A model generated the notes under the pieces. The model had not been told where the DNA came from. It saw nothing but the letters and a program-made list of their open reading frames with translations, and searched no databases. A stretch of DNA of 64,000 nucleotides, taken from Thermoproteota archaeon. GTDB lineage: Archaea > Thermoproteota > Nitrososphaeria > Nitrososphaerales > Nitrosopumilaceae. Position 1 is the first letter of the stretch, and every line of letters begins with the position of its first letter. Position numbers and translations under genes: made by a program. Shown one piece after another: positions 3,487 to 38,103 of this stretch. Location of the stretch: the NCBI GenBank assembly GCA_003352285.1, contig QQVN01000005.1:348380-412379 (forward strand), in the 5' to 3' direction.

Positions 3487-3693
3487 ATGGCAAGTGCTAA
3501 AAGAACTGTAAAAAAAGCAGCTCGTAAAGTAAAACGTACAGCTAAGAAAGCAGCAAAGACTACAAAAAGAAAAACAAAGAAGACTGCTGCAAAAGCAAAA
3601 CGTACAGCTAAGAAAGCAGCAAAGACTACAAAAAGAAAAACAAAGAAGACTGCTGCAAAAGCAAAACGTAGGGTAAAAAAGGCTAAAAAATAG
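3487..3693 (+). CDS. Lys/Ala-rich histone H1-like protein with internal tandem repeat
   Basis: 68 aa made only of M, A, S, K, R, T and V, with no acidic residue. It resembles the C-terminal tail of histone H1 and the bacterial AlgP/HctB-type lysine-rich proteins, so DNA or RNA binding and compaction is the likely role. Two 22-aa copies of KRTAKKAAKTTKRKTKKTAA+KA follow each other, encoded by an exact 66-bp duplication (3531-3596, 3597-3662). A TATA-like stretch near 3455-3465 places transcription start close to the ATG, so the mRNA is probably leaderless. Strong expression would be expected of a nucleoid protein; not shown here. Confidence 0.75.
   Translation: MASAKRTVKKAARKVKRTAKKAAKTTKRKTKKTAAKAKRTAKKAAKTTKRKTKKTAAKAKRRVKKAKK
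3531..3662 (+). repeat. Exact 66-bp tandem duplication inside the H1-like gene
   Basis: Two head-to-tail 66-bp units, 3531-3596 and 3597-3662, with no differences; the next 8 bases (to 3670) begin a third copy. The unit is 22 codons, so the frame is kept. The lack of silent differences points to a recent duplication or ongoing repeat-number exchange. Confidence 0.9.
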
Positions 3694-10638: not shown

Positions 10639-11712
10639 TAGGAGTCGTGCACCATCAGAGACAACTACTACCTTTTGTCTTGCACCCTGAGTTTTTAGAA
10701 CATAATCCATTCCATGTTTAATTCCAGAAAGAGAAATCATGTTAAGCTTCTTTGCATAAAACTCAGGAAGTATTGAAACTAATGCAACCTGAAATCTTTT
10801 TTGAATTTCATTTAGAAATAGTAAATCCTCCATTCCATTGATGTATTTTGATGGATTTCGAATTTGATCTAAACTCAACCTATCCTCAATATATTGCTGG
10901 ATAGCATCTGAACCAATCCCCATCTTACACTCTGCAACAAGAACTGCCAATCCATTATCCTTAATGGCGTCACTACAATTCCATAAAGAGTTTAAAGATT
11001 TTCCAAGGGTATCATTACTTGCGTCTTTGCCTGTGCTGATAAACATAGTCTTGTGTTTTCCCACATCTTTGATTGCAATAGATTCAAAGGTTTTCGTCAG
11101 AGAAATGGTTGATGAGGGATGACCAACTGCAATGTCAACTATTCCCTTTGAGTTTGCCAGTATCTCAATTCCTATAATCTCAAAGTTATCAACAAATTTT
11201 TTTGCTTCCTCTAGGCTTTCAGTGGCCTGACAAGGAGTAGGTAGGTTCCCCTTTCTTTTTGCATATGCTGAAAGCATGTTTTCAGTTCCAAATCGTTTGA
11301 GCAATCTAGTCGCAATTGTTTCAAATCCAAATAGTCCATCCATTTCTAACTCACTTAAAAATACCAAATTTGAGTTAGTCAAGCTTGATTCTTCAAATTC
11401 TGATATGATGCTGCCTTCTGGAAGACCTTGTTTTACAAGATTTAGAATTTTTCTATCAGATAAAATTCTTGGAATAGGCCTTGATTTTTGTTCACATGAA
11501 GAAAACAAGATGGAGATGATTTTTTGAACTGCTTTTGAGTGGTGTAACACCACTAACTCAATTGGTTTAGTTGTGTCTAACGAATTTAATTTTTCAGCAA
11601 TCTGAGTATCTTCAAGTATTTTGCCATCAGAATCAATATTTTCTTCTAAATTCTCTGCCCTGATGTCCAAAACGACATCAGTAATTCCATAATTTAACCA
11701 GATTTCAGGCAT
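10630..11712 (-). CDS. LarA-like (DUF2088-related) protein, function uncertain
   Basis: About 360 aa starting MPEIWLNYGITDVVLDI (ATG at 11710-11712; six upstream residues are possible). The first strand-turn-strand resembles the N-terminus of nickel-dependent lactate racemase LarA, and NGLAVLVAECKMGIGSD resembles the LarA C-terminal EC-x-G-x-G segment. The catalytic DxTRPTP-type stretch is not visible; VVLHHSKAVQKII stands in its place. It is therefore either a diverged relative with another activity or only structurally similar. It faces pyrE across a 50-bp divergent promoter region. Confidence 0.5.
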   Translation of the reverse strand: MPEIWLNYGITDVVLDIRAENLEENIDSDGKILEDTQIAEKLNSLDTTKPIELVVLHHSKAVQKIISILFSSCEQKSRPIPRILSDRKILNLVKQGLPEGSIISEFEESSLTNSNLVFLSELEMDGLFGFETIATRLLKRFGTENMLSAYAKRKGNLPTPCQATESLEEAKKFVDNFEIIGIEILANSKGIVDIAVGHPSSTISLTKTFESIAIKDVGKHKTMFISTGKDASNDTLGKSLNSLWNCSDAIKDNGLAVLVAECKMGIGSDAIQQYIEDRLSLDQIRNPSKYINGMEDLLFLNEIQKRFQVALVSILPEFYAKKLNMISLSGIKHGMDYVLKTQGARQKVVVVSDGARLLLR

Positions 11713-11762
11713 AATACATTGAAAAAACAAACCAAAATAAATCCAGTGTAGTTAATTTTGGT

Positions 11763-12371
11763 ATGGAATTTGTAAAAGAGTTTGCAACATTTTTGTTCCA
11801 AAAAGGCTCGATCAAGTTTGGAGATTTTACCCTAGCCAGTGGAAAAAAGAGCTCATACTATATTGATTTGAGAGTAGTTCCAAGTTTCCCTCATCAATTC
11901 AGAAAGATGGTCAAATATCTCCAAAATCAAATAATAGAAAAGACAGGATTGGAGAACTTTGATTCTTTAGTTTCAGTCCCAACTGGAGGATTAATTATTG
12001 CGTCTGCATTAGCGATTGAGACAGTAAAACCGTTAATCTATGTAAGAACCAAACCCAAGGATTATGGTACTTCAAAATCTGTTGAAGGATATTTTGAGAA
12101 AGGTATGAAAGTATTGATGATTGATGACGTTGCCACTACTGGCGGTTCTGTGATAAATGGAATTAAATCATTAAAACAAGAAGGATTAGAGATTTCAGAT
12201 ACATATGTGATTATTAATAGAATGGAAGGCGCCACTGAGGCTTTACGTGATGAAGGAGTTAAAATGCATCAATTAACAGACATTATGGAAATCACTAAAA
12301 TTCTTTATGAGCAAAAAATGATTTCGGAAGAAATTTTAGATAAGGTAAAGATGCAGACAGGAACAAATTGA
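11763..12371 (+). CDS. pyrE: Orotate phosphoribosyltransferase
   Basis: 202-aa cytosolic enzyme of pyrimidine synthesis: orotate + PRPP gives OMP. The PRPP-binding motif VLMIDDVATTGGSV is intact, as is the SGKKSSYYIDLRV stretch that binds orotate in OPRTases. Length is normal for a monofunctional archaeal PyrE. Starts at ATG 11763, probably on a short or leaderless mRNA. Confidence 0.95.
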   Translation: MEFVKEFATFLFQKGSIKFGDFTLASGKKSSYYIDLRVVPSFPHQFRKMVKYLQNQIIEKTGLENFDSLVSVPTGGLIIASALAIETVKPLIYVRTKPKDYGTSKSVEGYFEKGMKVLMIDDVATTGGSVINGIKSLKQEGLEISDTYVIINRMEGATEALRDEGVKMHQLTDIMEITKILYEQKMISEEILDKVKMQTGTN

Positions 12372-12481
12372 TTGGCAGCTCAGTCAAATGCCTTTACATC
12401 ATGATTCAGATATAACTCTGATTCTTCATTGCGGCCGTACAAATTACCTATGAGTTATTTTTAAAACTAATTGAAAAAACA

Positions 12482-12555
12482 TGGGCCCGAAGGGCTTCGA
12501 TCCCTTGGCTCACCGGTTATGAGCCGGTTACTCTACCAAGCTGAGTTACGGGCCC
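12482..12555 (-). tRNA. tRNA with CAT anticodon (Met elongator or Ile2)
   Basis: 74-nt cloverleaf on the minus strand: acceptor GGGCCCG/CGGGCCC, anticodon stem ACCGG/CCGGT around CTCATAA, T-stem AAGGG/CCCTT and discriminator A. It is not the initiator, because it has G1-C72 and no triple G-C in the anticodon stem. The acceptor closely resembles archaeal tRNA-Ile, so an agmatidine-modified Ile2 is a real alternative to Met. The T-loop starts with A (ATCGAAG) instead of T54, which is unusual outside initiators. No CCA is encoded. Confidence 0.88.
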
Positions 12556-12599
12556 CACGCAAATGAGGTTTTATCCTTGGTATAAAATGTTATAGAGAT

Positions 12600-13235
12600 T
12601 TAGCAATATGCTTCATAACAACTATCAAGCAACAAATTTTGTGCAGATATTGATTTGTCTGCAATTTGTAGTAATTTTTCTTGATCAGTTGTTGAATTCT
12701 CCAAGATATTTCTCCATGATGCTGCGTGTCGGATATCTGCTTCTGTATGAAGTTTAAAGTATTCAATTGCCTGAGCGCTTGTAATTCCATAAAATTCTGC
12801 CAATCCTTCTAATTTTGTTTGACTGATTTTTGGAATTTCTTTTTCAAAAGCATACATTGCACATGCACCACTCTCAAATGAATTCATCAGAGATGATAAT
12901 TGTGAAACAGCTTGTCTAGTTTTTTCCAATCCATTATATTGTTGCAATTCATTTTTTGGGACACCTAGAGAATCTGCAAATTCTATCCAGGGTTGGATGT
13001 GTTCGGATTCTTCTTTTTGGTTAGCAGAAAGCTCAGCAACAAGGGAATCAGGTGCTTGATGTATAATTGGTGTCATGAAATTTGGGACTTCTTTTACTAG
13101 TTGAAAATATTCTTTTGAATATCCAGTAAGTGATTCTATACTTAATTTTCCATCTGACCACATTTGGTAAAATGGGTGTTTTAGTAAACTTCTTTCTTCT
13201 ATCTTTTCATCAATTTTTTGAATTAGTTGATTCAT
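12600..13235 (-). CDS. CADD/TenA/PqqC-like protein (haem-oxygenase-like fold)
   Basis: 211 aa, all-helical. It contains the third-helix metal motif H163-x3-D167-x2-H170 (LHTEADIRHA), a Glu in YAFEKEIPKI (E131), and Glu/His around KEESEHIQPW (H79). This is the pattern of the di-metal CADD subgroup, which includes the chlamydial and Nitrosomonas proteins that make p-aminobenzoate from their own tyrosine. Tyr in HPFYQMW (Y23) could correspond to the sacrificial Tyr. The spacing of the first-helix Glu/His differs from the usual E-x6-H, so TenA-like thiamin salvage is not excluded. Confidence 0.65.
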   Translation of the reverse strand: MNQLIQKIDEKIEERSLLKHPFYQMWSDGKLSIESLTGYSKEYFQLVKEVPNFMTPIIHQAPDSLVAELSANQKEESEHIQPWIEFADSLGVPKNELQQYNGLEKTRQAVSQLSSLMNSFESGACAMYAFEKEIPKISQTKLEGLAEFYGITSAQAIEYFKLHTEADIRHAASWRNILENSTTDQEKLLQIADKSISAQNLLLDSCYEAYC

Positions 13236-13316
13236 ATCTCATATCCAAATTCTCCGTTAAAAAAGTCTTTTTCGTTTCCAAAGGATTTTAAATAAAGAAT
13301 GACCCGATGCAAACGT

Positions 13317-13407
13317 GCTCCTGTGGTGTAGTCCGGTCAAGCATACCGCCCTTTCAAGGCGGTGATCCCGGGTCCAAAATCATTTGATGGAAATCCCGGC
13401 GGGAGCA
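13317..13407 (+). tRNA. tRNA-Glu (TTC) with a short intron in the T-loop
   Basis: Acceptor GCTCCTG/CGGGAGC, anticodon stem ACCGCC/GGCGGT around CTTTCAA (anticodon TTC), discriminator A at 13407 followed by an encoded CCA (13408-13410). Between the T-stem strands CCGGG (13368-13372) and CCCGG (13395-13399) there are 22 nt instead of 7. Removing about 15 nt leaves the loop TCCAAAT. Confidence 0.93.
13376..13394 (+). other. tRNA intron region, T-loop (about 15 nt within this span)
   Basis: TCC (13373-13375) pairs with GGA (13389-13391), and ATCA pairs with TGAT (13379-13382/13385-13388) around TT. A-rich 3-nt bulges on either side give a small bulge-helix-bulge with a 3-bp central helix, the target of archaeal tRNA splicing endonuclease. 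A-runs leave the exact cut sites ambiguous; 13378-13392 is one solution. Confidence 0.8.
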
Positions 13408-13453
13408 CCAAGATTTAATTAGTAATTGAAAAGAATTTTGGATAGAGCTGTAT

Positions 13454-14305
13454 TTGGATAGAAAGAATATAGAAATTAATCCTCTTTTGGAAACTTATGG
13501 TCGTTATATCAAGAAAATTGATGAAGTTCTAGAAGCTGAATTGAATCTCTATAGCGAATCAGAGTTCATAGAACCATTAAAGTACTCAATTCATGGAGGC
13601 AAGAGAATTAGGCCAATAATTTTGGTTTTGGCTGCAGAAAGTGTAGGAACAGTTGATGAAAATACCTATACTGCTTCATGTGCAGTCGAATTTCTCCATA
13701 CAGAATCCGTCATTCACGATGACATTATTGATGATGAAACCCTAAGAAGGCAAAAAGATCCATTCCACATAAAATATGGATACAACACTAGTATTCTTAC
13801 AGGCGATTTTGTTTTAGGATTAATTCTTAATATTTCATCAAAAATTAACAATCCAAGGATAACAAAAGATCTTGCCACCACTGCAATGTTGATGAGTGAG
13901 GGCGAAATGATTGAGGGTCAGCTAGAAGCAAGTGAAGATGTAACCTTTGATGATTATCTAAAGGTGATAGAATATAAAACAGCTACTGCATTTGAGGTAG
14001 CGGCTAGAATTGGCGCCATCATAGGAAAAGGTTCTGAAGAAGAAATAGAAGCACTAACAGAATATGGAAAGAATATCGGAATTGCTTATCAAATAAGAGA
14101 TGATTTACTTGATTGGAAGAACGAAGACAAATTATTTAATTTGCTAATTAAAAAGAGTCACGATCCAAGAGATGTTTTTAATCGAATGGAAGATTTGCTA
14201 AAAAGTTATTCTGAGAAAGCTAGAGTAGGATTAAGAAAGATTCCAGATAATGATGCAAAGAGTAATCTTGAGCAACTAATTGCATTCACTAGTTTTAAGG
14301 CGTAA
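13454..14305 (+). CDS. idsA: Polyprenyl diphosphate synthase (geranylgeranyl-PP synthase-like)
   Basis: 283-aa head-to-tail prenyltransferase making C20 (or longer) isoprenoid diphosphates for archaeal membrane lipids. The first aspartate-rich motif is HDDIIDD, preceded by HGGKRIRP. The second is RDDLLDW. Start is a TTG at 13454 with no better ATG nearby. Somewhat shorter than typical 320-aa enzymes, losing the far C-terminus. It converges with nuoN, overlapping by 11 bp. Product chain length cannot be stated from motifs alone. Confidence 0.9.
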   Translation: MDRKNIEINPLLETYGRYIKKIDEVLEAELNLYSESEFIEPLKYSIHGGKRIRPIILVLAAESVGTVDENTYTASCAVEFLHTESVIHDDIIDDETLRRQKDPFHIKYGYNTSILTGDFVLGLILNISSKINNPRITKDLATTAMLMSEGEMIEGQLEASEDVTFDDYLKVIEYKTATAFEVAARIGAIIGKGSEEEIEALTEYGKNIGIAYQIRDDLLDWKNEDKLFNLLIKKSHDPRDVFNRMEDLLKSYSEKARVGLRKIPDNDAKSNLEQLIAFTSFKA

Positions 14306-15779
14306 TACCTAAACTTAGTGATGGGGCAGCACTTTCTGCAAAGTTGATTATTGGATCTGGATAGACACCAATTCCAACCATGAATATTATTGAGAATATC
14401 ATTACTGCAATGATTGACTTTGGTTCTTTGACTCTCTTTTGTGTCTCACCCTCAAAGTACATCTTTCTCATAATCCAACCATAGTATGCCAAAGATAGTG
14501 CACTGTTTAGCACTCCAGCTATAGCTAACCATGGGGCCCACCATACAACTGTACCAGCATCTAGTGCAGAGCCAAATAACATTAGTTTACTCCAAAAACC
14601 ATTTAGTGGTGGAACACCTGCAAGTGCAAATAGTGAGATTACAAGACCCAATGATGTGATAGGCATTCTTCTACCAAGTCCTTTGATCTTATCCAAATGA
14701 GTTACAGCAAGAGTCGTAACAATTCCTGCAACTGCAATAAACGCTGCACCTTTCATAACAGAATGATTAAGAATATGGAATAAAGAGCCAGAAAGTCCTA
14801 TCTGTGAGAACGGTGCAACTGCCAATCCAATCAAAATGTAGCCTGCATGAGCAATACTGGAATATGCAAGCATTCTTGAAAGATTCTTTTGCATTATAGC
14901 AGCAATGTTTCCTATTGTCATTGTCATTACTGCGATGATTCCAAGTGCAAGAGTCCAATCAAGATTTAATGCCACAGTTCCCATCACAATTACTCGAATC
15001 GCTGCGGCAAATCCAGCCTTCTTTGTACCGGCTGCAAGTAATGCAGTAATTGTTGGAGGTGCTCCTTCGTATGTATCTGGCAGCCACATGTGGAATGGAA
15101 CTAATCCCATCTTGAATCCAAATCCTGCTATGAACATACCTATAGCAAGTAATGCAAGAGGTAGCAATTCTGGATCTACTGTAGCAAATCCTTGCATTAC
15201 TTCGCTGATGTTAGTAGAACCAGTGATTCCATAAGCCAAAGATATACCGTAAACGATTATTGCTGATGACAAAGCACCAAACAAAAAGTACTTGAGTGCA
15301 GCTTCGTTTGAGCTTGGGTTCTTTTTCATAAATCCTGCTAAAATGTATGTTGGAATGCTCATTAGCTCCCATGCAACAAATAACATTACCAAGTCAGTTG
15401 CATAAGCAACAAGAACCATACCAATTGCAGAGAGTAAAATCAGTGAATAGTAAACAGCAGAATGACTCTGCTTTCTCATGTAATTAAAAGAGCCAACTGT
15501 AGTCATTATTGCTACAATTAACATTGCAATTGCAAAGAGACCACCAAATGTGTCATCAACTAAAACACCTGAAGAAAACATTGCAGCAGAGAGAGTCTTC
15601 TCACTGACTAGTTGATAGATGACATAGCCGATGGATGCAATTAGGGCACCAAATGCAATTACAGCATAAAATGAATTGCTTCCCTTTTCTTTTCTAGCTA
15701 TGCTAATTACTGGAAGAATTACACCTATGGTACCAAGTATTGCAATTATTATCATTGGTGTTGAAGTAATTTCGATCAT
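14295..15779 (-). CDS. nuoN: Complex I subunit N (antiporter-like)
   Basis: 494-aa multi-spanning membrane subunit, one of three antiporter-like proton pumps of complex I. Conserved marks include ELMSIPTYILAGF, FKMGLVPFHMWLPDTYEGAP and the broken-helix region HILNHSVMKGAAF. Last gene of the nuo operon, 11 bp after nuoL, and it overlaps the 3' end of the convergent prenyl synthase. Confidence 0.96.
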   Translation of the reverse strand: MIEITSTPMIIIAILGTIGVILPVISIARKEKGSNSFYAVIAFGALIASIGYVIYQLVSEKTLSAAMFSSGVLVDDTFGGLFAIAMLIVAIMTTVGSFNYMRKQSHSAVYYSLILLSAIGMVLVAYATDLVMLFVAWELMSIPTYILAGFMKKNPSSNEAALKYFLFGALSSAIIVYGISLAYGITGSTNISEVMQGFATVDPELLPLALLAIGMFIAGFGFKMGLVPFHMWLPDTYEGAPPTITALLAAGTKKAGFAAAIRVIVMGTVALNLDWTLALGIIAVMTMTIGNIAAIMQKNLSRMLAYSSIAHAGYILIGLAVAPFSQIGLSGSLFHILNHSVMKGAAFIAVAGIVTTLAVTHLDKIKGLGRRMPITSLGLVISLFALAGVPPLNGFWSKLMLFGSALDAGTVVWWAPWLAIAGVLNSALSLAYYGWIMRKMYFEGETQKRVKEPKSIIAVMIFSIIFMVGIGVYPDPIINFAESAAPSLSLGITP

Positions 15780-15790
15780 CCATTAATCAC

Positions 15791-17860
15791 CTAAATCAAC
15801 AATATCAGAACTACGAAGAGTAGTCCTGCTCCAAATACGAATAGATATGATTGTGCAACACCAGTTTGAGTTCCCTGAACTACTTTTGCGCCCCATCCTA
15901 CTGCTTTTTGTAATCCTACATTCATGCCATAGTCAATTGCTGTCTTCTCAAAGTAGCGGAATACACCACGTGCTAGCCATAATGGTGCTACAACAAAGCA
16001 CCAATAGATAATTGCATTAAGATACCATCTGTTTAACATAACTTTGTGAATTCCATAGAAGAAGAGATTAGAGTTTACAAATTTGACAGGATCAACCCAT
16101 CTACCAATATAGAATATGTATCCAAGTCCAATTCCTATGGCAAATGCTACCAATGATGCACCCAATGCAACGGGGTTAAGTCCCTGTAGGAATTCAGGCA
16201 ATATTGAATGCTCATCTGCATGATGTAAGGAATGAATTCCAAATGAATGCTCCAAATACTCTGCAAATAATTCGTGTATTCCACCTTCTACTGACAATCC
16301 AATAATTCCTATTCCAATAGTCAAGACTGCAAGAATACCATATGGTACCCACATTGACAATGGAGCTTCATGAATGTGATGTCCTTCGGATTCCATCTTT
16401 TCAACGTGCTTGCTCTTTGGACCAAAGAAGACCATTCCAATCATTCTTGTTGTGTAAAATGCTGTAATGATAGCAGTAAGTACTGCAATTGCAAATATTG
16501 GCAAGGCCCATTCGTTTCCTGATTCATACACTGATGCAAAGATTGCATCTTTACTCCAGAAACCTGTTGTGATAAATGGAGCTCCCATCAGACCAAGTCC
16601 TGCTGCCCACATAAACGCATAAGTCTTTTTCATGTGTTTTCGCAGACCACCCATATCTGTCATAAATCGTGAGCCAACAATATGCAGTAACGAACCGGCT
16701 GCCATGAAGAGCGAAGCCTTAAACATTGCATGAGATATCAAGTGGAAAAATCCTGCAGTATAACCATCAACAAATTGTTCAGATAAACCTGCAATGCCTA
16801 ATGCCATCATCATATATCCGATTTGAGAACCTGTAGAATATGCAAGAACCTTCTTAATTTCTGGATTGACCATACCTTGAGTGGCAAGCAATAATGCAGT
16901 TATAGCACCAACCCATGCAATAATTTCAAAGAACTGATCTGCTAGAATTCCTGCTGCACCTAATGCAAAGAATAATGGTCCTAATCTTGCTACAAGGAAT
17001 ACGCCTGCCTTTACCATCGTTGCTGCGTGAATTAGAGCAGAAACAGCAGTAGGGCCAGTCATTGCTTCAAGTAGCCATTCATTTAGTGGGAATTGTGCAG
17101 ATTTTCCTATCGCTCCACCAAATAGCAACACTGCTGCAGGTATAAGCAATCCTTGGGCAGACATTGTAGTTGCCCATGTAGTATCTTCTAGTAATTCTCT
17201 AAATCCAAATGTTCCAGCAAATGCAAATATCAAAAGCATTCCAGCAATCATCATCACATCACCAACTTTGGTCATGATGAAAGCCTTCATCCCTGCATGA
17301 GTTGGAGAATAATAATCAAGTAAACCTAGAACAGTACGTCCTTCTTTTCCAACATAGTCTTTCTTTTTATCACGATACCAAAAGCTAATCAATGCATATG
17401 ATGCAAGTCCTACACCTTCCCAACCAAAGAATACCTGTAACAAGTTATCAGAAAGAACAATCAGCTGCATCGAACCAATAAAGAACATCATCCAGAACCA
17501 GAATCTTACAATATCTTTATCGCCTTTCATGTAACCAGTGCTGTAAATCATGATAAGGAAAGATATCCAACCAACAACGTTTGCCATGATAATTGCAATT
17601 GGATCAGCTAAGACTCCAGCTTTAATTCCAATTGCATTTATCCAGTTAATCTGATCATGCACCTCATGAGCTTCTAATGCAATTGGAAGCAAAGATGCTG
17701 CAGATAATGCACTCATTAGGGCAAATGCAACTGCAACATAACCCGTTGCTCGTTTAGAGGCTTTACCAACACCTGGAATAATCATTGCTGCAGCAAATGG
17801 CAGTATCCAGATTAGCCAAGCAGCATACTGACCAATATCAAATCCCATCATGTCAGCCAT
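15791..17860 (-). CDS. nuoL: Complex I subunit L (antiporter-like)
   Basis: 689-aa distal proton-pumping subunit of the membrane arm with about 16 helices. It shows FFGWEGVGLASYALISFWY, KSAQFPLNEWLLEAMTGPT and LIHAATMVKAGVFLV, which are typical of NuoL. The C-terminal third contains a His-rich loop (GIHSLHHADEH) before the long lateral helix region. Placed 3 bp after nuoM; the gene order M-L-N is reversed relative to bacterial L-M-N, as in other archaeal operons. Confidence 0.96.
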   Translation of the reverse strand: MADMMGFDIGQYAAWLIWILPFAAAMIIPGVGKASKRATGYVAVAFALMSALSAASLLPIALEAHEVHDQINWINAIGIKAGVLADPIAIIMANVVGWISFLIMIYSTGYMKGDKDIVRFWFWMMFFIGSMQLIVLSDNLLQVFFGWEGVGLASYALISFWYRDKKKDYVGKEGRTVLGLLDYYSPTHAGMKAFIMTKVGDVMMIAGMLLIFAFAGTFGFRELLEDTTWATTMSAQGLLIPAAVLLFGGAIGKSAQFPLNEWLLEAMTGPTAVSALIHAATMVKAGVFLVARLGPLFFALGAAGILADQFFEIIAWVGAITALLLATQGMVNPEIKKVLAYSTGSQIGYMMMALGIAGLSEQFVDGYTAGFFHLISHAMFKASLFMAAGSLLHIVGSRFMTDMGGLRKHMKKTYAFMWAAGLGLMGAPFITTGFWSKDAIFASVYESGNEWALPIFAIAVLTAIITAFYTTRMIGMVFFGPKSKHVEKMESEGHHIHEAPLSMWVPYGILAVLTIGIGIIGLSVEGGIHELFAEYLEHSFGIHSLHHADEHSILPEFLQGLNPVALGASLVAFAIGIGLGYIFYIGRWVDPVKFVNSNLFFYGIHKVMLNRWYLNAIIYWCFVVAPLWLARGVFRYFEKTAIDYGMNVGLQKAVGWGAKVVQGTQTGVAQSYLFVFGAGLLFVVLILLI

Positions 17861-29281: not shown

Positions 29282-29429
29282 TATGCTGTTACCTAACAGG
29301 GGGTAAATTTTAAGTTTTGATTAAAGAGTGGATCAATACAAGGAATACCAGAATATTTCGTGATTATCTTCCATAGAAATTCAGTTTTTGATGATTTGTA
29401 ATATAAAAACACCTACTTGTAAGATGTCC

Positions 29430-29499
29430 AAGTGCTAATTATTTTGAGAAAAATGCTAGTGGTAATATGAAAATTTAGTTTTCGGCTTCATATACTATT
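29430..29499 (+). promoter_or_regulatory. Promoter of the DUF1722 gene with CTAGTGGTAA motif
   Basis: CTAGTGGTAA at 29456-29465 is centred 55.5 bp before the ATG at 29516, and a TATA-like TATACTATT at 29490-29499 lies between them. A weaker copy, AAGTGCTAAT, sits at 29430-29439. The same 10-mer or its S-variant recurs at three neighbouring promoters. Confidence 0.65.
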
Positions 29500-29515
29500 T
29501 TCTTGCTCTTCTTCT

Positions 29516-30004
29516 ATGTTGAAAGAGATACCATCCCCCAAAGTAGATAATCTGTCACTTGTCGACATTCATCAGTTTGTTTATGAAAGATTTTTTGAAG
29601 CAAAAAACCACAGTGATTTGAATGAGCTAATACGATTCCATACAAACAACAAGTATTTGTTTATGGCACATAGTCCAAACCAGCTAAATAAGCTTGGTAA
29701 TTTAGTTGCAAACAAAAGCAGAGATAATCCTAAAGAGGTCTTTGAAAAATACTATCTCATTATGAGAAGTCTTTTACAAAAAAATCCTACAAATAGATCA
29801 CATCTTAATACAATTTATCATATAGTTGGACACTTTTCAAAAGATCTTACAAGGGAACAAAAAAATGAATTTTCAAAGATGGTAGAAAATCTGAAGAGAG
29901 ATGAAAAAGAATTAAGAAATATTCTATTAACATTAAAAAATTGGACTATGAAATTTGACAAGAGGTATTTGATTAGACAGACATATTTTTTGTTATTTAC
30001 ATAA
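29516..30004 (+). CDS. DUF1722 (YbgA-like) protein
   Basis: 162 aa. It matches the DUF1722/YbgA family: LIRFHTNNKYLFMAHSPNQ, LNTIYHIVGHFSKDLT and RDEKELRNILLTLKNW, ending YLIRQTYFLLF near the family's Q-T-Y end. In bacteria DUF1722 is often fused to DUF523 or sits with DNA photolyase and light-induced genes; its biochemical role is not established. Here it stands alone without DUF523. The start ATG at 29516 fits a leaderless transcript. An upstream motif is shared with three nearby genes. Confidence 0.8.
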   Translation: MLKEIPSPKVDNLSLVDIHQFVYERFFEAKNHSDLNELIRFHTNNKYLFMAHSPNQLNKLGNLVANKSRDNPKEVFEKYYLIMRSLLQKNPTNRSHLNTIYHIVGHFSKDLTREQKNEFSKMVENLKRDEKELRNILLTLKNWTMKFDKRYLIRQTYFLLFT

Positions 30005-30006
30005 TA

Positions 30007-30043
30007 TTACCACTAGAGGAAAATTAGATTCATGCTTTTATTC
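30007..30043 (+). promoter_or_regulatory. Promoter of the 112-aa gene with TTACCACTAG motif
   Basis: TTACCACTAG at 30007-30016 is the exact reverse complement of the site before the DUF1722 gene, and is centred 52.5 bp before the ATG at 30064. A TATA-like CTTTTATTC at about 30035-30043 is at the spacing expected for a leaderless start. Confidence 0.62.
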
Positions 30044-30063
30044 AATTGTGAATACTATCTAGT

Positions 30064-30402
30064 ATGCAACAAACAGAAAATAAACCAATTATAATTAAGA
30101 TAAAAAAATTAGATATCAATCAAAGTTACTTTTTTGGAATTGCGTTGATAAACGAAAAAGAATACAAAATTAATGTTCAGGGACATTGGAAAGAGAAATT
30201 AATTAAATTGCCAGTTTCATACCCAAAACAAGAACGTGTTTTAATCAGGTTCTCCGGTGAGAATGGTGTATTTATTGAAGATGTTGTCTCTCATAAAGGC
30301 AATTCAGAGTGGATAGAGATAGATTCTGATGAAATTCTTCATTATATTGGAGATCATCAGGATGAGCTTGATACAATTGAAGTGTACTTGAAAGAATCAT
30401 AA
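30064..30402 (+). CDS. Hypothetical protein in the CTAGTG motif group
   Basis: 112 aa, not recognised. Predicted mostly beta (KPIIIKIKKLDI, SYFFGIALINEKEYKINV, RVLIRFSGENGVFIEDVV) with an acidic C-terminus. No cysteines, membrane segment or signal peptide, so a small cytosolic protein. It has its own promoter with the shared 10-bp motif. Its stop overlaps the end of the convergent small membrane gene (30397). Confidence 0.6.
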   Translation: MQQTENKPIIIKIKKLDINQSYFFGIALINEKEYKINVQGHWKEKLIKLPVSYPKQERVLIRFSGENGVFIEDVVSHKGNSEWIEIDSDEILHYIGDHQDELDTIEVYLKES

Positions 30403-30621
30403 TTTTTCGATGTAATCTGCTTTTTTGTGTGCAAGAAAGATCATAAAAACCCCGAATCCAATTACGCCAATTGAAATCTTCTCAGCAGTGATTTCTTGGG
30501 AAGTGTAAAAGTCAGTCACAAAGTCAGGCCCCCAAACAATTAGATTTTGGATAGGAACTATTATTGCGGTAATAATGAAAAGAACTCCAAATGCACTAAA
30601 GACATTTTTTGCAAACTTCAT
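30397..30621 (-). CDS. Small two-helix membrane protein, B12-sensor operon
   Basis: 74 aa with two membrane segments (about residues 9-31 and 50-65) and a short basic C-terminus. No known motif. Its ATG overlaps the stop of the B12-binding protein gene (ATGA), so it is cotranslated with that protein and may work with it. Confidence 0.65.
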   Translation of the reverse strand: MKFAKNVFSAFGVLFIITAIIVPIQNLIVWGPDFVTDFYTSQEITAEKISIGVIGFGVFMIFLAHKKADYIEKL

Positions 30622-31463
30622 TTCATTGCTTGCTTGATAATACGAGGAATCTTTTCAAGCGGTTGATTTTGAATTATCTCTCCATCAAATTTGTAGTCCT
30701 TTCCTTCAACTGCTTGTCCTCCTACTAATACAGGTACCTTATATTGTGAATTAATTTTACTAACCAAGCGCTGTCCAGATTTTATGTTGTCCTCAAGTGT
30801 TATGGAAACAAAGACTGCATGTGGCTTTTTGTCACTGATAAAACTTAGGACAGATTCTGTTGGAGCAGATGGAGATATGTTGTAAACATGATATCCCTTG
30901 CTTTGTAAGAATGATTGAATGACATTACATCCAAGATTATGTTCTTCACCTGATGGAGTACAGACAAGAATTTTGTCTTTCTTCTTTATTACAGAATTTC
31001 TTTCTGTAATAATGCTAACAAGCTCTTTTGCAATGTTGCTTGATACATGCTCTGTGGCAACGCTTAATTCGTTTGATTCCCATAAATCTCCAATCTTATA
31101 CATTACGGGTTTGAGAATTGAATCATAAAAAACGTTGAGAGTGTTTGTTTTTTCAAATGATTCAAAGATGTCAAGACATCTATCAAGATCACCTTTGGTT
31201 AATGCGTTGAACAGTTCTTTTTTGACTTTATCAATGAGCTTTTGATTTTTTTCTACGTTTTCTCCTGAATGTGTTGTCAGAAAAGAAAGGATTTTTGGAT
31301 CTTTGCGGTAATCTTCAGGAACATCATTTAATTTTACAAGTGATGCTTTGCCAAGATACTTGATAATCTCTTGTCGTGAAGTATTCTTTTTAGAATCCCA
31401 TTTGCTTTTGACAAGATAAAGATACTTGTCTCCTTTTACTGTTTTAGCTCTAACATACACCAT
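30618..31463 (-). CDS. B12-binding sensor-like protein with W-x9-EH motif (CarH-like, no MerR domain)
   Basis: 281 aa in three parts. Residues 1-60 resemble the beta-rich N-terminal domain seen in some IS1634-type transposases (KYLYLVKSKW, then RQEIIKYLGK). Residues about 75-165 are a four-helix cobalamin cap with GDLWESNELSVATEH, an exact W-x9-EH, the signature that shields the upper ligand in CarH/LitR photoreceptors. Residues about 170-281 are a Rossmann cobalamin domain with GEEHNLG, giving the lower-ligand His, and VPVLVGGQAV. There is no MerR helix-turn-helix, so any DNA contact would come from the N-terminal domain or a partner. Corrinoid methyl transfer is the main alternative. Confidence 0.72.
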   Translation of the reverse strand: MVYVRAKTVKGDKYLYLVKSKWDSKKNTSRQEIIKYLGKASLVKLNDVPEDYRKDPKILSFLTTHSGENVEKNQKLIDKVKKELFNALTKGDLDRCLDIFESFEKTNTLNVFYDSILKPVMYKIGDLWESNELSVATEHVSSNIAKELVSIITERNSVIKKKDKILVCTPSGEEHNLGCNVIQSFLQSKGYHVYNISPSAPTESVLSFISDKKPHAVFVSITLEDNIKSGQRLVSKINSQYKVPVLVGGQAVEGKDYKFDGEIIQNQPLEKIPRIIKQAMK

Positions 31464-31464
31464 G

Positions 31465-31650
31465 CTAATCCCTCTTCCTTCCTCGTGGTTTTGTACGCAG
31501 GACTGCCTTACAGCAAGGACACCTCACATCAGGAATTGAGAAAAAGAAGCCACAGAAGGTGCATCGCTTATGACCTTTTTCATAACGCATTCCATTTGGA
31601 AGTGATTCTGCTTGAAGTATTTGGCATACTCCCTTGCATGAGCGTCCCAT
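31465..31650 (-). CDS. Small Cys-rich zinc protein (CKGxC ... LRTKPRGR family), copy 1
   Basis: 61 aa with six or more cysteines: SCKGVC, then KRCTFCGFFF and VRCPCCKAVLRTKPRGR. This suggests one or two zinc sites; the basic tail suggests nucleic-acid contact. A close paralogue lies at 38383-38580. It ends 1 bp before the B12-sensor gene and is probably the first gene of that operon. Confidence 0.72.
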   Translation of the reverse strand: MGRSCKGVCQILQAESLPNGMRYEKGHKRCTFCGFFFSIPDVRCPCCKAVLRTKPRGRKRD

Positions 31651-31735
31651 CTATTGCTCACTCCCGAATTGTGGGTTTGATTTTTTATTTTTTAATTTCA
31701 TCATAATCATATTTTTCACCATAAAAAATTTGGAA

Positions 31736-32632
31736 TCATCCCAAATCTAATGGGATGTTCATACTTCCCCATGGCTCATTGATTCTAAAAGAATAACTCT
31801 TTGATGAATCATATTCGAAAGTTGTTCCTCCATAACCAATGTTTGGTCCAAAGAGCATTGTGAATTCTTTTGCTTCACCTGGTTTCAAAACAATTTGACC
31901 GTTGGTAAAGTCCATTCCAGAATACTTGTATGCTTTTGAGCCATCTGTAACATCATAGCTACATATTGCGGGGCCTGTACATGAGAGTGCGACGTTATCA
32001 CTTGATCCTGTATTTTCTGCTAGCATTTTAACAGTTAAGAGTGCTTGACCAGAGGAGCTTATTTCAAACTCGACTCCAGGATAATAGAAAGTGACAGGTC
32101 CAACATTATATGGAGTTGAATTTTCTTTGTATTCAATCAAAGTTAATTTTTCTTTAACTTCTTTTTCACAATCTAATCTCTTGTATGCCTTTGTAATTTC
32201 CTGACATGCTTCAAGCTCTGCTTGCAATGCAGCGACTTTAGAATTATCAGAAGATTCTACTGAAGCGCTCTTTACTGTATCCTCAGCCATTGAATCGGTT
32301 TGTACAGAGATAATTCCAATCTTCATTAAATGCTGTAATCCATTTACAAATTCATCATCACTAACCAAACCGTCTGACCACCATGCTGCACTGGTTTTTA
32401 CCCAGTCAGGTACGACATCAGATTTCTCACCAGATACACTTGTTGTAGGAACAACTAGAATTCCTTCCTTTATCAAGAATTGAATTCCTTGTACAAAATC
32501 AGAATCTCCGATTTGTCCATCCGCCCACCAACCTGCATTGGTCTTAATCCATGCTGGTACTTCTGCGCTTGCACTTTGTGCAAGTGGTAGTAGTACCAAA
32601 ACAGTAGCAATAACAGCGATTTTTGTTTTCAT
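31736..32632 (-). CDS. Secreted protein with two W-rich repeats
   Basis: 298 aa from the ATG at 32630-32632. A signal peptide (KIAVIATVLVLLPLAQSASA) is followed by two 38-residue repeats, VPAWIKTNAGWWADGQI... (about 25-62) and VPDWVKTSAAWWSDGLV... (about 73-110). These are the PxWxKxxAxWWxDGxxxDxxFvxGxqxL repeats common in secreted thaumarchaeal proteins. A beta-rich C-terminal domain follows with GPVTFYYPGVEF and a Cys pair (LSCTGPAICSYD). Likely anchored at or released from the cell surface; function unknown. Three copies of the local promoter motif surround its start. Confidence 0.72.
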   Translation of the reverse strand: MKTKIAVIATVLVLLPLAQSASAEVPAWIKTNAGWWADGQIGDSDFVQGIQFLIKEGILVVPTTSVSGEKSDVVPDWVKTSAAWWSDGLVSDDEFVNGLQHLMKIGIISVQTDSMAEDTVKSASVESSDNSKVAALQAELEACQEITKAYKRLDCEKEVKEKLTLIEYKENSTPYNVGPVTFYYPGVEFEISSSGQALLTVKMLAENTGSSDNVALSCTGPAICSYDVTDGSKAYKYSGMDFTNGQIVLKPGEAKEFTMLFGPNIGYGGTTFEYDSSKSYSFRINEPWGSMNIPLDLG

Positions 32633-32690
32633 TAGCACTAGTTTGCTCTTATAGTATATAACTAGTGCTAAATTGATCACCTAGTGGTAA
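32632..32690 (-). promoter_or_regulatory. Promoter of the secreted-protein gene with three motif copies
   Basis: On the plus strand TTAGCACTAG (32632-32641) touches the start codon, CTAGTGCTAA (32662-32671) lies just upstream of the TATA-like TATATACTATAAG, and CTAGTGGTAA (32681-32690) is centred 53.5 bp before the ATG. The first two form a perfect 12-bp inverted repeat (32632-32643/32660-32671) with a 16-bp spacer holding the TATA box, an arrangement expected for repression. Confidence 0.72.
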
Positions 32691-32709
32691 AAAAACGGTC
32701 ACTAGAAAA

Positions 32710-32803
32710 GCGAGGAATGATAATGACTCGGTGTGACAGGTTAATGCTCGAGGGGGATTCTTGCATTCTAGGAACCAATTTGTCACGCATGCTCGTTCCT
32801 CGC
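32710..32803. ncRNA. Candidate structured RNA or long imperfect hairpin (94 nt)
   Basis: Nested pairings: GCGAGGAATGA (32710-32720) with TCGTTCCTCGC (32793-32803), 11 pairs; GTGTGACA (32731-32738) with TGTCACGC (32781-32788), 8 pairs; GGTT/AACC and AATGC/GCATT inside, leaving a 15-nt loop. Two pairs are G-U if read on the plus strand but A-C if read on the minus strand, which favours a plus-strand RNA. A TATA-like element at about 32822-32835 sits correctly for a minus-strand start at 32803, so the strand is unresolved. No protein-coding frame is convincing. Confidence 0.5.
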
Positions 32804-32854
32804 AACTAACATTGGTTCGATTTAGTATTTTAAGAAAACATGCTCTGTACGGAT

Positions 32855-32891
32855 TTAGCACTAGAAGAAAATTCATTTTGAGATTAAATAC
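32855..32891 (+). promoter_or_regulatory. Promoter of the FAD oxidoreductase with TTAGCACTAG motif
   Basis: TTAGCACTAG at 32855-32864, centred 53.5 bp before the ATG at 32913. A TATA-like GATTAAATAC at about 32882-32891 fits a leaderless start. Confidence 0.65.
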
Positions 32892-32912: not shown

Positions 32913-34280
32913 ATGAAAGATGAAGTAATAATTATTGGTGCAGGTGTAAGTGGATTATCATCTGCGGCATTATTGGTAAAAGAAAAAATTCCAGTCAGAA
33001 TATTTGAAAAATCTCCTAAAGTTGGTGGTAGAACAACATCTACTAGTTACAAGGGACATATTTTGGATAATGGATTTCATATTATGCCATTTTACAAAAC
33101 GTCGGCAGTTTACAAAGTATTAGAAGAGATAGGAATAGTTTCTGATTTAAAATTATCAATTGTCGATGATATTACTTTTTTTCAAGAAAAAAAATTTCAT
33201 AAATATCCAAAAGGTATTTTGGATTTTTTTCAATTATCAATTGTTCCAATGAAGAGTAGACTAAAGCTGTTAAGGATACTTTTGCCAATGGCATTCACTT
33301 CGATGGAAAAAGCTCAAGAGTTAGATTCAAAATCATTAACTGAAATTACAAAAGCGATGGATGAGAAAACAAGATCTTTTTTTGATGCAGTGTGTATGTT
33401 AGCTTTTGCTGATACACCTGATCATGTATCACTTGGGGAATTTGTACGAACAATAATCAGGGCTAATCCGTTTAAGGGCGGAACAAGTGAGTTTGGTTAT
33501 CCATCAGAAGGTGGATATGACAAAATTTCAAAGATATTAGAGGAGTATGTCAAAAATAATGGTGGAATAGTGAACCTATCTACCCCAATAAAAAAAATTG
33601 TAATACAAAATAATTATGTAAAGGGAGTCGTACTAGAAAGTGGAGAGTTTTTCCCATCAAACTGTGTGATAGTCTCTAATCCAGCATACATTGCCGTAAA
33701 GAAATTCTTTGATGATGAAGTTTTTGATAAAAAATTCTTATCCAAAGTTGAAAAACTAAACAAGACAACATCAGTAATTGAGGTACATTTTTGTCTCTCA
33801 AAAAAGATTGATTCTAGACAGATTGTTTTTCCTGTAGGAAGCAGCTATACTGCAAAAGGTGTTTTTTTTATCACAAACATTGCACCATCTGTATCTCCTA
33901 AAGGAGAGCATCTAGTCATGGCAGGCACTCCTGTTCCATCTGAATATACCGACAATCCACAAATGATTAGAGAAGTGGTAGACAGAATGAAGGCAGATAT
34001 TTCTCAGATTTATCCTGATTTTAAGGAAAATCTCCTTTGGGAGAAACCAATGGCATGGAAATTAGTTGAAGCAGTTGTAAAAGAACCGGGATTAGTCTGG
34101 AAACAAAAGATGCCGCATAACATAGAGGGAATCAAGGGATTATTCTTTGTGGGAGATTCAACCATTAGCTATGGAATAGGTACTGACTCTGCAGCACATA
34201 GTTCTATGTTATGTCATCCAAAGATAATCAATCATTTGAAAGAAAAATCAGAGCAAGAGATTCAGATTAAACAAAATTAA
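32913..34280 (+). CDS. Phytoene-desaturase-like FAD oxidoreductase (COG1233)
   Basis: 455 aa. The N-terminal dinucleotide-binding motif is IIIGAGVSGLSSAALL, followed by FEKSPKVGGRTTS. The C-terminal FAD motif GLFFVGDSTISYGIGTDSAAHS is also present. The family includes carotenoid desaturases/isomerases and related isoprenoid oxidoreductases. No phytoene synthase or cyclase lies beside it, so a carotenoid substrate is only a guess. The gene has its own promoter with the motif shared by the DUF1722 and secreted-protein genes. Confidence 0.82.
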   Translation: MKDEVIIIGAGVSGLSSAALLVKEKIPVRIFEKSPKVGGRTTSTSYKGHILDNGFHIMPFYKTSAVYKVLEEIGIVSDLKLSIVDDITFFQEKKFHKYPKGILDFFQLSIVPMKSRLKLLRILLPMAFTSMEKAQELDSKSLTEITKAMDEKTRSFFDAVCMLAFADTPDHVSLGEFVRTIIRANPFKGGTSEFGYPSEGGYDKISKILEEYVKNNGGIVNLSTPIKKIVIQNNYVKGVVLESGEFFPSNCVIVSNPAYIAVKKFFDDEVFDKKFLSKVEKLNKTTSVIEVHFCLSKKIDSRQIVFPVGSSYTAKGVFFITNIAPSVSPKGEHLVMAGTPVPSEYTDNPQMIREVVDRMKADISQIYPDFKENLLWEKPMAWKLVEAVVKEPGLVWKQKMPHNIEGIKGLFFVGDSTISYGIGTDSAAHSSMLCHPKIINHLKEKSEQEIQIKQN

Positions 34281-37797: not shown

Positions 37798-38103
37798 TTA
37801 TTGTCCAGTGGGATTCATCAAAGCTGCTCTTTCTTTGAGTTTTTGGTCAACAGGTGCCATGATATAGTCACCTGCTTTTGCGTCACACTGACCAATATTT
37901 ACAGCATATCCGTCCGGAGTTTCAGCAATACAACCTGCGTCAGTAACTGCAATGATCTCTACTCTTTCTATAATCTCAGCTGGGCTAACATACCACATCA
38001 GATAAGCAAATAGAGATATCCCAATTGCAGCCAGCACACCAGATATTATAAGATATGTTGTAACGCTTGATGATTTTTTTTCTTTAGTTGGTATAGCAGA
38101 CAT
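37798..38103 (-). CDS. Single-helix membrane protein, hypothetical
   Basis: 101 aa: a short cytosolic start, one membrane helix (about residues 17-38) and a roughly 60-residue outer domain with two cysteines (DAGCIAETPDG and IGQCDAKAGDY), possibly a disulfide. Not recognised. The small beta-rich outer domain resembles accessory subunits of respiratory complexes in general design, but this is only a resemblance. Confidence 0.6.
   Translation of the reverse strand: MSAIPTKEKKSSSVTTYLIISGVLAAIGISLFAYLMWYVSPAEIIERVEIIAVTDAGCIAETPDGYAVNIGQCDAKAGDYIMAPVDQKLKERAALMNPTGQ

Follow-up and report, generated by a model that had tools for sequence, protein, structure and literature searches.

A conserved promoter element tracking a CarH-like B12-binding protein suggests a photoprotection regulon in Nitrosopumilaceae

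CarH and the class I LitR proteins are bacterial MerR-type AdoCbl photoreceptor-repressors, in which a MerR helix-turn-helix is combined with a four-helix and a Rossmann B12-binding domain carrying the W-x9-EH motif and an axial histidine. Their regulons include photolyase, FAD oxidoreductase, SDR and RudS/DUF1722, and the CarH operator is built of contiguous 11-bp direct repeats (nnnnTnnACAn) located on the -35/-10 elements. The class II LitR proteins of Pseudomonas (PplR/PmlR with short LOV) have no Rossmann B12 domain and depend on a LOV protein; phrB, a short-chain dehydrogenase, an FAD-dependent oxidoreductase and the RudS operon belong to their regulons (PMC9758184, PMC11417400). RudS/DUF1722 and photolyase have been tied to LitR operons, DUF1722 being a domain that RudS-type tRNA 4-thiouridine desulfidases combine with a second one (PMC11417400). 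The B12 co-regulators AerR and LAerR sense light without a MerR domain, and AerR acts via CrtJ in purple bacteria. Photocobilins carry an added C-terminal bilin-binding domain. For archaeal B12 photoreceptors, a Nitrosopumilus light response or regulons of ammonia-oxidising archaea (AOA), no prior description was found in the open-access literature searched, although this absence is not proof.

The locus analysed here lies in a window of 64 kb (the whole stretch of DNA under study) and contains the gene of a B12-binding protein, referred to as the B12 sensor, surrounded by copies of the 10-mer CTAGTGSTAA/TTASCACTAG (Table 1). The preliminary description had reported six copies, of which four stood 55.5, 52.5, 53.5 and 53.5 bp before start codons with a TATA-like element in between. 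All six copies and all four distances were confirmed, as was the TATA-like element for each of the four genes, that of DUF1722 being weaker. No seventh exact copy was found across the window, and copies with one mismatch are present at 3491 and 29429. When the window is modelled as a first-order Markov chain, 0.148 copies are expected per 64 kb versus the 6 observed (P(>=6)=1.3e-8). The additional claim that only this region has the motif held for the window and failed for the genome, in which 15 exact copies were counted, with 2 for the reversed-motif control. This genome-level work consisted of searches plus chosen stretches, and several copies outside the window lie at the matching start-codon distance before other genes.

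Table 1. Motif copies, promoter elements and genes of the locus, in window coordinates
Feature	Position	Strand	Remark
One-mismatch copy CAAGTGCTAA	29429-29438		Upstream of DUF1722
Site CTAGTGGTAA	29456..29465	+	Centre 55.5 bp before DUF1722 ATG
TATA-like element CATATACT	near 29489		DUF1722 promoter; weaker
Stand-alone DUF1722 protein, 162 aa	29516..30004	+	Pfam PF08349 E=5.6e-31
Site TTACCACTAG	30007..30016	-	Faces the 112-aa gene, with its centre 52.5 bp ahead of that ATG
TATA-like element TTTTATT	30036		112-aa gene promoter; +29 from site
112-aa protein, function unknown	30064..30402	+	Relatives in other genomes also site-bearing
74-aa membrane protein	30397..30621	-	Downstream of B12 sensor, overlaps its stop
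B12-sensor protein, 281 aa	30618..31463	-	Proposed regulator
61-aa zinc-ribbon protein	31465..31650	-	Between secreted protein and B12 sensor, same strand
Secreted W-rich-repeat protein, 298 aa counted from ATG	31736..32632	-	Core target in relatives
Site TTAGCACTAG	32632..32641	-	Overlaps first base of secreted-protein start codon; conserved in G001
TATA box TTATATA of secreted-protein gene	32655-32661	-	
Proximal-repeat site	32662..32671	+	Abuts TATA box, 34.5 bp before secreted-protein ATG
Distal-repeat site	32681..32690	+	19 bp from proximal, centre 53.5 bp before ATG at 32632
Site TTAGCACTAG	32855..32864	-	Centre 53.5 bp before FAD gene
TATA box TTAAATA of FAD gene	32884-32890		+29 from site
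FAD-dependent amine-oxidase/CrtI-like protein, 455 aa	32913..34280	+	Pfam PF01593 E=4.9e-27

Since one copy overlaps the secreted-protein ATG and another abuts the TATA box of that gene, this promoter has three sites. The sensor gene of the source genome has no site of its own and is situated downstream of the three-site promoter, with which it likely shares an operon. The DUF1722 site at 55.5 bp recurs in G001, G004 and other genomes.

The full element consists of TTASCACTAG, 19 bp and then the TATA box TTAWATA, with the motif centred 52.5-53.5 bp before the ATG. A second, weaker direct repeat is located 19 bp downstream of the motif and adjoins the TATA box. This 19-bp spacing amounts to about two helical turns. 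The TATA box starts at +29 +-1 relative to the site, and was found in place (+28-30) for 110 of 178 intergenic copies versus 2 of 86 intragenic ones. The distances to the ATG peak at 50-55 bp, 209 of the 272 composite sites being centred 52.5 or 53.5 bp before it. The real element is a promoter in which the site keeps a fixed helical position to the TATA box and the start codon.

Among 151 Nitrosopumilaceae genomes surveyed, 67 contain the B12-sensor gene (B12+) and 84 do not (B12-). The strict promoter pattern was counted 155 times in the B12+ genomes versus 10 times in the B12- genomes, with 0 in all 151 for the reversed control, and within-genus permutation of the association between promoter and sensor gave no match in 20,000 trials. 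Six B12- genomes (G064, G124, G167, G173, G092 and G019) retain 1-4 strict promoters. Some of the six are incomplete; G064, G092 and G019 are 99% complete. The strict pattern is missing from 17 B12+ genomes, mostly of genera with shifted or diverged repeats such as Nitrosopelagicus. Upstream of the start codon of the sensor gene itself, the tandem element is present in 78 of 80 orthologues (shuffles 0.08%). An accumulation of the 10-mer by chance or codon usage can be all but excluded. In its favour, genome G007, without a B12-sensor gene, has 22 copies which all lie within ORFs, and a coding background of the 10-mer therefore exists. Against it stand the intergenic placement, the TATA phasing, the conservation and the zero strict promoters in reversed controls.

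The targets bearing the site include photolyase (via an inferred operon), RudS (PF04463+PF08349)/DUF1722, the pyrimidine-dimer glycosylase Pyr_excise, Dps, the CrtI-like FAD enzyme, SDR and TFB paralogues. The secreted W-rich-repeat protein is represented by 56 target promoters in 54 loci and the FAD/CrtI-like gene by 31 loci with the site, while the TFB paralogues, located in islands, form a minority. Photolyase was found in 29 of 67 B12+ versus 2 of 84 B12- genomes (within-genus permutation 1/20,000); where both are on one contig, it lies <=10.5 kb from the sensor in 21 cases out of 22. UvrB was rejected as a target, since the site that separates it from the adjacent gene (G000:C5:87396) faces the opposite way toward a short ORF with a TATA box at +29; the SIMPL/DUF541 gene at locus L013 was also rejected, as it points away from the site. 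Based on the conserved TATA and start geometry, the coherent targets and the co-occurrence across genera, the regulon is very likely real. Its proposal in the preliminary description, which scattered copies or a lack of conservation in relatives would have refuted, is strongly supported: fixed distance and conservation were both found, and more genes belong to the regulon than were first suggested.

The B12 sensor has a basic beta N-terminal domain (residues 1-65), followed by CarH-like four-helix and Rossmann B12-binding domains (PF02607, E=8.8e-13; PF02310, E=4.3e-12). It carries the motifs W128-x9-E138-H139 and E173-x-H175-x-x-G178; W128, E138, H139, E173 and the axial-ligand histidine H175 are invariant in 26 orthologues. 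The histidine that follows the W-x9-EH tryptophan in many CarH proteins (PMC9304148) is missing. In Foldseek the B12 module resembles photocobilin, the best match (8j2x, E=7.5e-14), and CarH (5c8e and others). Unlike photocobilins, the sensor has no C-terminal bilin-binding domain, its last residue (281) following the Rossmann domain, and it has the basic domain at its N-terminus. Unlike class II LitR, it retains both B12 domains, and photolyase, SDR, the FAD enzyme and RudS, which are putative targets here, also belong to the class II regulons. The B12 module, the W-x9-EH motif and the axial histidine are those of CarH and class I LitR, and sites precede genes of the kinds found in the regulon of those proteins, control of these genes being inferred. 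Both systems also place direct repeats beside core promoter elements, but the archaeal operator, at which binding is inferred, differs from that of CarH in its 10-bp repeats with a 19-bp period beside the TATA box.

The sensor also differs from CarH at the N-terminus. The NCBIfam CarH model covers residues 78-258 only, and no match to a MerR domain was obtained in Pfam or NCBIfam. The AlphaFold model predicts three beta strands at residues 2-39, and residues 1-40 as read from the sequence are strongly basic (11 K/R versus 3 D/E). This domain is the most conserved part of the sensor (76% versus 63% mean column identity). No recognised DNA-binding relative was found in Pfam, NCBIfam, PDB sequences or PDB folds. 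Assignment to a transposase-type or other known domain was unsupported in these databases and in plasmids, phages and viral contigs.

The B12 protein likely controls the regulon, its DNA binding being inferred, because the tandem element precedes its own gene and the element is nearly confined to sensor-bearing genomes. These two independent lines support the W-x9-EH protein, which had been put forward as candidate regulator by inference only. An unlikely alternative is that the protein senses light without contacting DNA and steers a separate reader of CTAGTGSTAA, as AerR does with CrtJ. The lack of a known DNA-binding relative of the N-terminal domain, the existence of B12 co-regulators without helix-turn-helix (AerR, PMC6199135) and a B12 paralogue in G001 (locus L083), adjacent to the site-bearing gene of a helix-turn-helix protein, speak for it. 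Against it are the conservation and basic character of the N-terminal domain, and no partner with a matching presence pattern was found. The family of the operonic zinc-ribbon protein occurs in 149 of 151 genomes and is therefore not diagnostic; this protein was rejected as regulator. The islands inspected showed no CrtJ-like gene close to the sensor. It is very unlikely that a specialised TFB paralogue reads the element as an extended B-recognition element (BRE), the B12 protein being merely one target. TFB paralogues are indeed among the targets and in islands, and the proximal repeat is at the BRE position. However, the distal copy is the strongest and, at 29 bp upstream of the TATA box, is outside known BRE contacts; TFB genes make up only a minority of targets, and the most consistent site precedes the B12 gene.

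Taken as a whole, CTAGTGSTAA is likely (probability of roughly 0.74) the site at which a photoprotection regulon of Nitrosopumilaceae is regulated, with the B12-binding protein next to it as the most likely regulator; this is inferred from sequence, without data on binding, expression or light. Light is the likely signal, the response itself being inferred, because of the CarH-like fold with its invariant W-x9-EH, the association of photolyase with the sensor and the literature (PMC11417400). The same fold, photolyase and literature evidence supports the parallel to CarH/LitR drawn in the preliminary description, light dependence remaining an inference. A response to B12 supply or oxidative stress instead of light appears improbable. 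Dps is a target, and a B12 domain could report the cobalamin level; however, the genes for photolyase, pyrimidine-dimer glycosylase and RudS/DUF1722 deal with light damage, W-x9-EH is a mark of AdoCbl light sensors, and the targets examined included no gene for B12 biosynthesis or transport.

In the proposed mechanism, the basic N-terminal domain would bind the repeats and the CarH-like domain adenosylcobalamin. In darkness, the oligomer carrying B12 would sit on the repeats and hinder TBP/TFB at the proximal repeat, causing repression. Light would cleave the Co-C bond and the oligomer would leave the DNA, after which photolyase, RudS/DUF1722, the FAD enzyme, the TFB paralogues and the sensor itself would be expressed. 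The sign of regulation is inferred, and dark repression can be given only slightly better than even odds. The main alternative keeps the site and the regulator but makes the B12 protein a light-state activator that would act from the distal site, at -53, and contact TFB or the polymerase. We lean slightly against it. In its favour, the helical phasing relative to the TATA box is invariant, and exact copies prefer the distal position (strict TATA offset 29 or 30 in 77 of 92 cases, 10-11 in 6). Many targets have the distal site only; at targets with one site, Dps and TFB among them, the proximal repeat is barely present, which fits simple occlusion less well. On the other hand, it is in the dark, as the AdoCbl form, that CarH-type domains bind DNA (PMC9304148), a state in which activation of photolyase would make no sense, and in Nitrosopelagicus the repeats are shifted to about -40 and -20 and flank the TATA box, as is typical of repression.

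A bolder reading, towards which the balance tips only modestly, is that of an archaeal light-sensing transcription factor, in which a CarH-type B12 photosensor is joined to a novel family of DNA-binding domain and controls a conserved AOA photoprotection regulon. If true, this would be the first photoreceptor-regulon pair for ammonia-oxidising archaea and the first archaeal B12 photoreceptor, and B12 photoregulation would reach the archaea with a DNA-binding domain unlike MerR. Ammonia-oxidising archaea are among the commonest marine microbes and drive ocean nitrification, and their light sensitivity is a long-standing question, for which this analysis supplies a named candidate sensor, operator and promoter architecture that are directly testable. 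The regulon would also offer a genome marker for lineages of lit waters. A tag before light-damage-repair genes that tracks a B12-sensor-like protein suggests an unrecognised archaeal light switch, in which the response to light is inferred.

A scan of the window for CTAGTGSTAA returned exactly six copies, as the preliminary description had claimed, with positions and strands confirmed. That description had also placed the motif at a fixed distance before four start codons, and all four distances were right. Under a first-order Markov model built from the window, 0.148 copies are expected per 64 kb (P(≥6) = 1.3e-8); with the same window-based model, 3.9 copies are expected in the 1.69-Mb genome and 15 were found (P = 1.6e-5). 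The sites of the window precede the genes for DUF1722, a 112-aa protein, the secreted repeat protein and the FAD enzyme. The secreted-protein promoter carries three copies: 53.5 bp upstream, against the TATA box and touching the start codon. An imperfect copy, CAAGTGCTAA, lies 27 bp farther upstream than the DUF1722 site, and similar second copies occur before DUF1722 in two other genomes, G001 and G004.

The promoter layout was derived by aligning intergenic motif copies from relatives. Read toward the gene, on the other strand, the element is TTASCACTAG. In these alignments a TATA box (TTAAATA/TTATATA) begins 29 bp (±1) past the motif's first base, the motif centre lies 52.5-53.5 bp from the start codon, and a weaker second direct repeat follows 18-20 bp downstream of the motif, abutting the TATA box. 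The TATA box stood at this position for 110 of 178 copies between genes and for 2 of 86 copies within genes (Fisher 1e-23), and the start codon was found at 52.5 or 53.5 bp in 209 of 272 composite sites; the minority of forward-oriented copies, e.g. before DUF1722, lie about 2 bp farther from the gene. The element is a promoter component with fixed spacing to TATA box and start codon. From the short distance between these two it is inferred that the transcripts are probably nearly leaderless.

The strict pattern TTASCACTAG-N18..20-TTAWATA was scanned in 151 family genomes and gave 165 sites; the reversed pattern, as control, gave 0 sites in any of the 151. The 67 genomes encoding the sensor, the B12-binding protein proposed as regulator, contained 155 of these sites, and the 84 without it contained 10 (Fisher on presence 1.2e-18). 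When sensor presence was permuted within genera, the observed total was reached in 0 of 20,000 trials, and therefore genus-level shared ancestry does not explain the association. In the sensor-negative genome G007, all 22 bare 10-mer copies lie inside genes. Sites also persist in a small number of genomes where no sensor was detected; some of these are drafts, but three are 99% complete. The strict pattern is absent from 17 sensor-positive genomes, mostly of genera in which the arrangement has shifted or diverged. The whole case for the regulon and its link to the sensor consists of sequence evidence only.

The sensor comprises B12-binding four-helix and Rossmann domains. Structure comparison of its AlphaFold model (mean pLDDT 89.6) gave matches to photocobilin and CarH. 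W128, E138 and H139 (W-x9-EH) and E173/H175 do not vary among 26 orthologues. Residues 1-65, three beta strands and one helix, are better conserved than the remainder (76% versus 63% mean column identity), contain 11 basic versus 3 acidic residues among the first 40, and showed no match in Pfam, NCBIfam, PDB sequences or PDB folds. DNA binding by this region is an inference without binding data. A second B12-sensor paralogue (33% identical) was observed in G001, near a small helix-turn-helix protein gene with a site at 53.5 bp.

Scanning named genomes yielded 80 sensor orthologues, most of them from Nitrosopumilus, Nitrosarchaeum, Nitrosopelagicus and Nitrosotenuis. Tandem repeats (two direct repeats 18-20 bp apart, ≤5 mismatches in 20, within 80 bp before the start codon) precede the gene in 78 of them versus 0.08% of shuffled upstream regions, and autoregulation is inferred from sequence alone. 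In Nitrosopelagicus the pair is displaced by about 14 bp toward the gene and flanks the TATA box; at loci L309, L311, L312, L344 and others of this genus the repeats stand at about -40 and -20, not upstream of the box. The sensor gene has no site of its own in the present genome or in its sister, where it lies downstream of the genes for the secreted protein and the zinc ribbon, on their strand; judging from this gene order, the three-site promoter therefore probably drives it.

A second site-bearing island of this genome, on contig C3, includes photolyase, a 61-aa protein, a zinc-ribbon and TFB operon (site with one mismatch) and Dps. The photolyase gene comes after a 40-residue ORF, which starts 52.5 bp from a forward motif copy, and the two presumably share an operon. 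Predicted targets in relatives include the sensor and the secreted protein, along with the FAD enzyme and TFB paralogues; further ones are an NAD(P)-dependent epimerase/SDR, a TudS-DUF1722 (RudS) protein and a pyrimidine dimer glycosylase of the T4-endonuclease-V type, among others. Target counts are skewed toward sensor-adjacent genes because many loci were taken from around the sensor. Photolyase was present in 29 of 67 sensor-positive versus 2 of 84 sensor-negative genomes, and the latter two (G064, G124) both carry site-bearing promoters. Of the 22 cases with photolyase and sensor on one contig, 21 had them ≤10.5 kb apart. TFB paralogues with small zinc-ribbon proteins were seen as site-bearing operons at two loci, the zinc ribbons being of the same family as the one adjoining the sensor in the window. 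A small membrane protein encoded in the window looks similar, on visual comparison, to a 106-aa family whose members in other genomes bear the site; there is no site at the window copy and a degenerate one at the C3 copy.

One site-bearing promoter in genome G000, with two perfect repeats and a TATA box, has no ORF and drives a conserved structured RNA candidate, also observed at L077, L122, L381, L392, L393 and L394. Two or three hairpins stand in tandem, and every one has the conserved internal loop U[GU]UC/CU[UA]AA; the fold z is -4.6 and covariation is strong (paired cells 96% versus 31-39% when slid); no match was found in Rfam. By covariance model, 89 of the 151 family genomes contain the hairpin module, in many cases singly and between genes; genomes lacking the sensor are among them. 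A light-regulated, protein-binding (sponge) RNA is conceivable.

Coordinates of the features discussed
Feature	Sequence	Position
Motif copies	window	29456, 30007, 32632, 32662, 32681, 32855
Imperfect motif copy	window	29429-29438
DUF1722 gene	window	29516..30004
Sensor gene	window	30618..31463 (-)
Secreted repeat protein gene	window	31736..32632
FAD enzyme gene	window	32913..34280
Small membrane protein, window copy	window	37798-38103
Small membrane protein, C3 copy	L375	1309-1629
TFB/zinc-ribbon operon	L212	12330-13414
TFB/zinc-ribbon operon	L214	16125-17422
Locus with the second sensor paralogue	L083 (G001:C37)	10800-16500
Structured RNA candidate	G000:C5 (L374)	475338-475560 (1839-2060)

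Bacterial LitR/CarH regulons include photolyase, short-chain dehydrogenase, FAD-dependent oxidoreductase and RudS (PMC9758184, PMC11417400), and the list of predicted archaeal targets is nearly the same. In the dark CarH sits on 11-bp tandem repeats that cover core promoter elements, and light releases it (PMC9304148). By analogy, the AdoCbl-bound sensor oligomer would sit on the repeats in the dark, blocking TBP/TFB, and would leave them in light. On sequence grounds alone, without transcription data, such repression is favoured: the proximal repeat overlaps the BRE/TATA region, and the Nitrosopelagicus arrangement points the same way. The opposite sign, activation, remains possible given the strong distal site, the fixed phasing and the single-site targets. 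The archaeal system was checked for a MerR domain and for the 11-bp operator and has neither; it is therefore not a member of the CarH family. The system resembles CarH in its sensor module, its predicted targets and its repeats placed beside the core promoter, yet from outside that family.
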